A stretch of 64,000 bases of DNA, from positions 248,001 through 312,000 of the forward strand of contig NZ_BMOO01000005.1 in the NCBI RefSeq assembly GCF_014647115.1, given 5' to 3'. This document shows, piece by piece, positions 3,716 through 5,627 of the stretch (the stretch's first letter is position 1; every line of letters begins with the position of its first letter). The notes beneath the pieces were generated by a model. That model had not been told where the DNA came from and ran no database searches. It was given only the letters and a program-made list of their open reading frames with translations. This DNA is from Halarchaeum rubridurum (GTDB lineage Archaea > Halobacteriota > Halobacteria > Halobacteriales > Halobacteriaceae). Made by a program: the position numbers and the translations under genes.

Positions 3716-4636
3716 ATGGCTCCGGTCGTCGTCGCGGAGGACGTCCACGAGAGGTACGGCGACACCGTCGCGCTCGACGGCGTCTCGCTCGCCGTCGAGG
3801 CGGGCGAGGTGTTCGCGCTGATCGGGCCGAACGGTGCCGGAAAGACGACGCTCACCCGCTGTCTCACGGGCACGCGGACGCCCGACGGCGGGCGCGTCGA
3901 GCTGCTCGGCGACCCGCCCGCGGACGCCGCGAAGGAGCGCCTCGGGTTGCTCCCGCAGGACTTCGATCCGCCGGACCGGCTCACGGCGCGCGAGCTCGTC
4001 GCGTACTACGCGGGGCTCTACGACGACGCGCGCGACCCCGCCGACCTCCTGCGGACGGTGGGGATGGACCCCGCGGTCGACACCTGGTACGGCGACCTGA
4101 GCGGCGGCGAGCAGCGTCGCACCTGCGTCGCGGCGTCGCTCGCCAACGACCCGGACGTCCTCTTCGTCGACGAACCGACGACGGGCATTGACCCCGCGGG
4201 TCGGCGCGCGCTTTGGGACGTCTTCGAGGACCTCGCCGACGCGGGCACCACGGTCTTCCTCACGACGCACTACATGGCGGAGGCGGAGCGCCTCGCGGAC
4301 CGCGTCGGCCTCCTCGCGGACGGCGCGCTCGTCGCCACCGGGACGCCGGCCGACCTCATCGCCGACTACGGCGGCGAACAGTACCTCGCGGTCGAGACGG
4401 ACGCCGACGCCGCTTCGCTCCCCGACCTCGGCTACGAGGTGACGCGCGCGGGCGACGAGCTGCGCGTCGTGGGCGTCCCTCCCGAGGCCATCGGCGACGT
4501 CGCGGCGGAACTCGACGCGAACGGCGTCCCGTTCGACGCGCTCTCGTGGACGGAGCCCGACCTGGAGGACGTCTATCTCCGGCTCGCCGAGGACCCGAGT
4601 GCCGCCGAGACCGACGACGTGGAGGTGGTGGCGTGA
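3716..4636 (+). CDS. ABC transporter ATP-binding protein
   Basis: A 306-residue ABC ATPase of the CcmA/NosF class. Walker A is GPNGAGKT (37-44), the signature is LSGGEQ (129-134) and Walker B leads into VDEPTTGIDP (151-160). The switch histidine is in TTHYMAEAERLAD. A roughly 90-residue C-terminal domain follows, as in ABC-2-type exporters. The ATG at 3716 is chosen because homology begins at once (VVVAEDVHERYGD); a GTG three bases earlier is possible. Its stop overlaps the GTG of the next small ORF (GTGA). Substrate is unknown. Position among oxidase genes suggests a maturation role, in the way NosDFY serves nitrous oxide reductase. Confidence 0.88.
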   Translation: MAPVVVAEDVHERYGDTVALDGVSLAVEAGEVFALIGPNGAGKTTLTRCLTGTRTPDGGRVELLGDPPADAAKERLGLLPQDFDPPDRLTARELVAYYAGLYDDARDPADLLRTVGMDPAVDTWYGDLSGGEQRRTCVAASLANDPDVLFVDEPTTGIDPAGRRALWDVFEDLADAGTTVFLTTHYMAEAERLADRVGLLADGALVATGTPADLIADYGGEQYLAVETDADAASLPDLGYEVTRAGDELRVVGVPPEAIGDVAAELDANGVPFDALSWTEPDLEDVYLRLAEDPSAAETDDVEVVA

Positions 4637-4862
4637 GCAGCGTCGAGTCTCCCGACTCCACTGGCTCACACTCGCCGGGGGTGGCTCGCGTGAGTGGCGC
4701 GGCAACCGTAGAGCGCCGCGGAAGCGAACGCGCGACCGGAGGGATGTGCGTGAGTCGTGTCGAGTCTCCCGACTCGACTGGCTCACACTCGCCGGGAATG
4801 GCTCGCGTGAGTAGCGTCGAATCTGCGGCCCGACCGGCCCGCACTCGCTGGGGGTGGCTCGC
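4633..4862 (+). repeat. Imperfect tandem copies of a 56-57 bp unit, each starting GTGAG and ending GGCTCGC
   Basis: Copies occupy 4633-4689, 4750-4806 and (more diverged, one base shorter) 4807-4862. The piece at 4690-4749 has the same GTGAGT start but an unrelated interior. The permease itself begins GTGAGTCGC, like a fourth copy. Each good copy contains the hairpin GAGTC-TCCC-GACTC, which in copy 2 extends to TCGAGTC/GACTCGA and is flanked by GTGAG and CTCAC. No other copy was found in the window. Confidence 0.85.
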
Positions 4863-4866
4863 GTGA
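4633..4866 (+). CDS. Repeat-built 77-codon mini-ORF between ABC ATPase and permease
   Basis: An open frame that starts with GTG overlapping the ATPase stop (GTGA at 4633-4636) and ends with TGA overlapping a GTG start of the permease (GTGA at 4863-4866). It is made of copies of a 56-57 base unit, so its peptide repeats VSSVESPDSTGSHSPG-type segments. The peptide is hydrophilic, rich in Ser, Arg, Gly and Pro, and resembles no family I know. It may be an expanded intergenic element that stayed in frame, or a coupling device that carries ribosomes from ATPase to permease, not a functional protein. Confidence 0.35.
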   Translation: MSSVESPDSTGSHSPGVARVSGAATVERRGSERATGGMCVSRVESPDSTGSHSPGMARVSSVESAARPARTRWGWLA

Positions 4867-5627
4867 GTCGCTCCTCGCGGGTCGTCGCCGAGGCACGCGC
4901 GGCCTACAAGTCGTTCGTCCGGCGACGCGTCGCCGTCTTCTTCACGTTCTTCTTCCCCATCCTGCTCATCGTCATCTTCGCGGGCCTCGTCCGCACGGGC
5001 GGTGGCGGGACGGGGCTGTTCAGTCAGCCGCCGGGCTACTACGTGCCCGCGTACCTCGCGGTCGTCGTCCTCTTCACGCCGCTCTCGCGCGTCGGGAGCG
5101 AGGTGGCGCGTTTCCGCGAGGGCAACCGCTTCGAGAAGCTCGCGGCGTCGCCGATGCGCCGCTGGGAGTGGCTGGTCGCCCAGACCGCCGTCAACACCGC
5201 GCTCATCGCGCTCGCGTGTGCCGCCCTGCTCGCGCTCCTCGCCGCGACGGGCGCGCAGTTCCGCCTCTCCCCGTGGCTCGTCCCGTTCGTCCTCACCGGT
5301 TCGGTGCTGTTCTGCGGGATCGGCGCGGTCCTCGGCGCGCTCGCGGACAGCCAGGACGGCGCGATCACGGCGTCGAACGGCGTCGCGCTCCCGCTGCTCT
5401 TCCTCTCGAACACGTTCCTGAGCCCCGCGTCGCTCCCCGCGTGGTTCCGACCGGTGACGGACCTCTCGCCGCTCAGCTACTTCGCGTACGGCGTGCGCGC
5501 GGCGACCTACCCGGGGAACCACGCCGGGTGGCCGGGGTCCGTGGGCGCGGACTACGCCGTGCTCTGCGTCCTCGCGGTCGTCGCGTTCGCGCTGGGCGCG
5601 TGGCTGATCCCGTGGACGGAGCGCTGA
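4863..5627 (+). CDS. ABC-2 type transporter permease
   Basis: The membrane partner of the ATPase at 3716. About 254 residues with six hydrophobic segments: the first is AVFFTFFFPILLIVIFAG, and later ones flank GNRFEKLAASPMRRWEW, the typical cytoplasmic loop of ABC-2 permeases, and FLSNTFLSPASLP near the end. The GTG at 4863 overlaps the stop of the mini-ORF; a GTG at 4854 would add MAR. The gene ends three bases before the convergent DUF420 gene. The substrate cannot be read from the sequence. Confidence 0.85.
   Translation: MSRSSRVVAEARAAYKSFVRRRVAVFFTFFFPILLIVIFAGLVRTGGGGTGLFSQPPGYYVPAYLAVVVLFTPLSRVGSEVARFREGNRFEKLAASPMRRWEWLVAQTAVNTALIALACAALLALLAATGAQFRLSPWLVPFVLTGSVLFCGIGAVLGALADSQDGAITASNGVALPLLFLSNTFLSPASLPAWFRPVTDLSPLSYFAYGVRAATYPGNHAGWPGSVGADYAVLCVLAVVAFALGAWLIPWTER

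Follow-up and report, generated by a model that had tools for sequence, protein, structure and literature searches.

A Bridging Mini-ORF between Haloarchaeal ABC Transporter Genes Is Probably an Array of Dispersed, MIRU-like Intercistronic Elements

Results

Organization of the ABC transporter junction

The window, the whole 64-kb stretch of DNA analyzed here, carries an ABC transporter ATPase gene and an ABC-2 type permease gene joined by a short open reading frame (mini-ORF). The features of the junction are as follows.

3716..4636, + strand: ABC transporter ATPase, upstream gene (Pfam ABC_tran PF00005, E 8.6e-28); ends in GTGA
4621..4627, + strand: Shine-Dalgarno (SD)-like GGAGGTG, 5 nt 5' of the mini-ORF start (sequence)
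4633..4866, + strand: bridging mini-ORF, 77 codons plus stop, GTGA overlap at each end (sequence)
4633..4689, + strand: element copy 1, 57 nt (repeat comparison, covariance model)
4642..4661, + strand: hairpin A of copy 1, GTCGAGTC TCCC GACTCCAC, one mismatch; hairpin A covaries across copies
4660..4694, + strand: hairpin B of copy 1 (model R1, 52.4 bits)
4690..4749, + strand: spacer of a second module type (..AGCGAACGCGCGACCGGAGGGATGTGC) that separates copies 1 and 2
4750..4806, + strand: element copy 2, 57 nt (repeat comparison, covariance model)
4759..4778, + strand: hairpin A of copy 2, GTCGAGTC TCCC GACTCGAC, perfect 8-bp stem (sequence)
4777..4811, + strand: hairpin B of copy 2 (model R1, 48.2 bits)
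4807..4862, + strand: element copy 3, 56 nt (sequence, repeat comparison)
4833..4867, + strand: hairpin B of copy 3 (model R1, 43.5 bits); includes the permease SD and start codon
4850..4856, + strand: SD-like GGGGGTG, 6 nt 5' of the permease GTG (sequence)
4863..5627, + strand: ABC-2 type permease, downstream gene (Pfam ABC2_membrane PF01061, E 1.6e-23)

The ATPase stop codon (TGA, 4634-4636) lies within the GTGA at 4633-4636, and the mini-ORF TGA (4864-4866) is overlapped by the permease GTG at 4863. An earlier sequence-only reading had described this linkage by a 77-codon frame with two GTGA overlaps, and its coordinates, 4633-4866, hold. A scan of gene-like frames over the 64 kb of the window detected no second double-overlap mini-ORF, showing that the arrangement is not background.

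The mini-ORF is made up of three 56-57-nt unit copies and one 60-nt spacer. The proposed units at 4633-4689, 4750-4806, and 4807-4862 were borne out by repeat comparison, with identities of 90% over 69 bp for 4750-4806 and 83% over 46 bp for 4807-4862. TRF placed an array at 4748-4868 (score 151), and a covariance model of the 3' hairpin matched three copies in the window (E = 1.7e-11, 2.1e-10, and 3.6e-9). The spacer at 4690-4749 is a recurring module (AGCGAACGCGCGACCGGAGGGATGYGCGTGAG) that also adjoins an element copy in the congener Halarchaeum acidiphilum (loci L009/L032).

Each copy had been thought to regenerate an overlapping start. The inner GTG codons at 4690, 4750, and 4807 are instead in the mini-ORF frame, and so a ribosome would read through them. 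The frame shift that makes GTGA a stop/start overlap occurs only in the final 56-nt copy, which is one base shorter and so brings the last TGA into frame as the mini-ORF stop. The permease start, previously likened to a fourth copy, shares only about GTGAGT-GC with the unit, a match that looks like a short target duplication rather than a further copy.

Structure of the element 3' end

The 3' end of the element has the form GG(A/G)GGTGGCTCGCGTGA, comprising an SD, six bases, and the start codon. The motif G[AG]GGTG was found just 5' of the start in 82 of 88 junctions. A congener (locus L298) has the complementary anti-SD CACCTCC at the 3' terminus of its 16S; a first anti-SD pattern had given no match in the assembly to which the window belongs. 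A conserved 5' arm, CACRCTCGCCACC, is predicted to be able to pair with the element 3' end. The start codon at the 3' side of the element had a predicted unpaired probability of 0.12, and that at the 5' side one of 0.49 (p = 2e-16); predicted SD pairing did not differ between the two (p = 0.28). At hairpin A 118 of 133 pairs were kept, compared with a mean of 108.6 and a maximum of 113 in shuffles. Covariation at hairpin B was modest because most of its pairs hardly vary. The window's copies of hairpin B lack three bases of the 5' arm in the covariance model; sequestration of the SD may for this reason be weaker at the window junction than in the consensus, and hairpin control there may be weak.

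The same junction in the genus and in outgroups

A bridging mini-ORF is present at the ABC junction in all four species of the genus, with lengths of 77, 47, 20, and 19 codons, and the bridging frame is open in all four despite the change in length. The proposal that the mini-ORF bridges the two genes by reinitiation is still the best reading of this architecture, which is always in frame. The number of hairpin-repeat copies varies among the species, so that the copy-number variation expected earlier was found, between species rather than strains. In the two species with 19- and 20-codon mini-ORFs the repeat is no longer recognizable, which speaks against the idea that copy number tunes the ATPase:permease ratio. 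Outside the genus the same gene pair exists without the repeat, a situation that the sequence-only reading had named as telling against it. Here the genes mostly overlap directly: of 18 outgroup pairs whose junction could be read, 15 had a direct 4-nt overlap (counted by eye, with an error of one or two possible), and the rest overlap or abut closely.

Dispersal across haloarchaea

Covariance-model matches to the 3' hairpin (E up to 1e-3) were obtained in 90 of 243 genomes, representing 41 of the 73 genera of Halobacteriales. No match was obtained outside Halobacteriales when 147 genomes of the phylum were sampled. The element sits at about 35 gene pairs other than the ABC junction in many haloarchaeal genera, and the claim that the unit was copied from the ATPase-permease junction can thus be discarded. 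The downstream genes of 92 junction records fall into 37 clusters, which is the safer count, since many filled junctions are orthologous rather than independent events and p-values overstate their independence.

The filled pairs include argC-argB, purS-purQ, gcvPA-gcvPB, sucC-sucD, nuoB-nuoC, L24e-ndk, natA-natB-like ABC, arsR-SBF, MbhD/E-MnhB, crcB-crcB, V-ATPase E-C, liv permeases, livG-livF, and metE pairs. Many of these encode subunits of one complex, as coupled pairs often do (PMC10666635). Elsewhere in the window's own genome the element is clearly present at two junctions, those of the crcB pair (L002, L139) and argB (L031, L124). A 28-codon type (M..RRSCSLRCAGCD..HTRHRGWLA) was found at unrelated gene pairs, indicating dispersal rather than common descent of an operon.

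A scan of 84,980 species genomes for an exact hairpin pattern gave matches in Halarchaeum, Halobacterium, Halorientalis, Natrialba, Halobiforma, Natronorubrum, Saliphagus, Halobaculum, Halogranum, Salinigranum, and Halegenticoccus, among others. Bacterial matches to the pattern were judged to be due to chance; none had the joined mini-ORF architecture, bar one with an unrelated long open frame.

A search of Rfam with region 4400-5000 gave no match at E up to 1, and no match to the element was found in phage records. In plasmid records the hairpin was absent, and all that matched was the 5' module of the 28-codon type; in three haloarchaeal plasmid records (L299, L300, L301) this module lies alone near gene ends, not at junctions. 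Low-scoring model matches ending ..TLASLA* (L231-L235) occur in several genera away from coupled junctions and are probably another repeat. No transposase or excision event was seen for the element; its patchy distribution across sequenced genomes suggests that it is mobile.

Reading phase and insertion site

In the relay phase the mini-ORF starts at the stop of the upstream gene and ends with the TGA at the downstream start. Of 67 strong hits, 65 had in this phase a mini-ORF that joins an upstream open frame of 60 codons or more, whereas only 7 and 3 had one in the remaining phases (binomial p = 1.5e-21, with orthologous hits counted as independent). An NTGA overlap was present at the 5' end in 60 of the 67, and five more had a stop within a few nucleotides. 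Mini-ORF lengths range from 11 to about 88 codons with peaks at 20 and 28.

Orthologous junctions without the element mostly have a direct NTGA overlap. The purS-purQ junction is filled with a 28-codon element in four Halobacterium-like genomes and is a direct ATGA in most others; sucC-sucD is filled in three genomes and overlaps directly in most of the rest. Filled sites have the pattern ATGAC[element]GTGAC or ATGAG[element]GTGAG. A match of at least 4 nt between the two NTGA sites was found in 68% of 88 junctions, versus 31% of shuffled pairings, and this extended match between the flanking sequences would fit a short target duplication.

Besides the three copies in the window, tandem arrays are present at loci L041 and L033/L046. 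At the mnhB junction (L033/L046) and the crcB pair (L019/L051), two bridging mini-ORFs lie in series, each with its own NTGA overlaps. At H. acidiphilum locus L220 the upstream frame runs into an element copy, and the mini-ORF is apparently fused to the upstream gene. In two other genera (L247, L256) purS-purQ has diverged double-overlap mini-ORFs with GGAGGTGTC near the end that are not strong model matches. To judge from these two loci, relay cistrons may commonly be missed by sequence search.

Discussion

A relay between coupled cistrons

We consider it probable that the mini-ORF consists of arrayed copies of a dispersed intercistronic element that resembles the mycobacterial interspersed repetitive units (MIRUs) and, as a relay cistron, keeps translation of the two genes coupled. 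The element is dispersed, precisely located, and in frame, with empty and filled orthologous sites, a short flanking duplication, and a start codon that is predicted to be paired. From this architecture we infer translation of the mini-ORF, reinitiation, and any regulatory value of the hairpin.

The element would enter an NTGA stop/start overlap such that its 5' side retains the old start codon, now that of the mini-ORF. Its 3' side would supply an SD (GGAGGTG or GGGGGTG) and, after a spacer of 6 nt, a new GTGA in which the stop of the mini-ORF and the downstream start overlap. A ribosome finishing the upstream gene would reinitiate on the mini-ORF, and translation of the mini-ORF would open the hairpin in which the SD and start codon lie. 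On terminating at the end of the mini-ORF, the ribosome would reinitiate on the downstream gene. Two 4-nt overlaps would in this way keep the genes coupled despite an insert over which a ribosome could not reinitiate directly. Coupling in Haloferax volcanii is lost with a gap of about 20 nt (PMC10666635), and the contribution of the SD to reinitiation in Haloferax is variable (PMC6728339). Given such a limit, genes separated by an insert of 60-230 nt would stay coupled only with a bridging ORF, which makes a relay cistron the best explanation.

Alternative explanations

The tandem copies in the window, the variation in copy number among the four species, and similar arrays at the SBF-transporter and Mrp junctions of congeners would also be expected had tandem duplication of the ATPase-permease junction made the unit, with copy number tuning the ATPase:permease ratio. 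This is very unlikely, since the unit is dispersed at unrelated pairs in other genera, which already refutes the origin part, the inner copies are read through in frame, and two species have a mini-ORF without recognizable repeat. We regard it as more improbable again that the mini-ORF is the gene for a functional micropeptide with the C terminus -HTRHRGWLA or -GWFA. C-terminal residues do recur at many loci; however, they are what the DNA of the SD, hairpin, and start encodes in that frame. In type II mini-ORFs no codon position is spared differences, which number 309/375/438 by position in the 5' part and 244/155/157 in the hairpin part, and so the peptide is probably not the product. Further points against a micropeptide are the spread in length noted above, the lack of a Pfam match for four peptides, and the flat codon-position GC of the window mini-ORF (0.66/0.73/0.71).

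An ordinary intergenic repeat, with a chance open frame and a downstream gene served by its own promoter or a free SD, could be envisaged because haloarchaeal genes that lie +50 to +150 nt apart are often transcribed separately (PMC10666635). To this we attach the least credence, in view of the phase test (65 versus 7 and 3), the 4-nt overlaps at both ends, the predicted pairing of the start codon, and the lack of an A/T-rich TATA-like stretch in the copies as read. The chances are evenly balanced, in our judgment, that the element is purely selfish, surviving at NTGA sites because its own SD and start keep the downstream gene working, with no regulatory benefit. This is a sub-reading of the relay-cistron explanation. 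The precise placement at junctions and patchy presence fit tolerance by selection, the peptide is without clear constraint, and the same reading has been given for MIRUs (review PMC12548453). Against it, the bridging frame survives length changes in orthologous sets (argC-argB, natA-natB) and the hairpin is conserved across genera.

A stronger form of the relay-cistron explanation is a mobile archaeal relay cassette that is independent of mycobacterial MIRUs and whose hairpin makes the downstream subunit strictly dependent on the mini-ORF, thereby setting stoichiometry. We put this forward tentatively and lean against it. If it were true, the core operons affected would be those for a Complex I-like enzyme, succinyl-CoA ligase, glycine cleavage, and purine synthesis.

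Some haloarchaeal gaps of about 50-80 nt classed as uncoupled may conceal an unannotated relay cistron. Empty and filled alleles of one operon in sister species are natural experiments on termination-reinitiation, and also bear on how a mobile element enters an essential operon without breaking it.

Comparison with known systems

No earlier description of the element in haloarchaea was found in the open-access literature, most subscription journals being outside the scope of the search. MIRUs insert at DTGA sites and form tandem arrays. They are described as mobile mycobacterial repeats that appear to insert at start codons and contain an internal ORF coupled at -4 nt (review PMC12548453, 2025). 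The haloarchaeal element is likewise short and dispersed, with an internal ORF coupled to its neighbors. However, its hosts belong to another domain of life (Halobacteriales only, 147 genomes of the phylum having been sampled), and the family is defined by a 3' hairpin with SD and start codon and by size classes of about 20 and 28 codons. We therefore call the haloarchaeal elements MIRU-like, a likeness of lifestyle that makes no claim to membership in MIRUs sensu stricto (Mycobacterium). The comparison suggests that MIRU-type insertion into coupled stop/start sites also occurs, and is widespread, in archaea.

NTGA pairs of Haloferax volcanii have an ATGA or GTGA overlap, use termination-reinitiation, and often encode subunits of one complex (PMC6728339, PMC10666635). 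Element-filled junctions share the junction type and the overlap but interpose a short cistron, such that two reinitiation steps would be needed, the second at a start within a hairpin. Small size, a palindromic and non-coding-sized sequence, and dispersal are shared with REP- and MITE-like repeats, including haloarchaeal MITEs, whereas the present element sits at operon stop/start overlaps with a conserved frame, and neither terminal inverted repeats nor a parent transposase were found for it. In bicistronic couplers a short ORF brings the ribosome to an overlapping start and cancels the effect of structure there (review PMC12548453). The haloarchaeal mini-ORF also overlaps the next start, but, unlike these synthetic devices, the element is natural and dispersed, and it lies between the genes of an operon rather than before the first gene.
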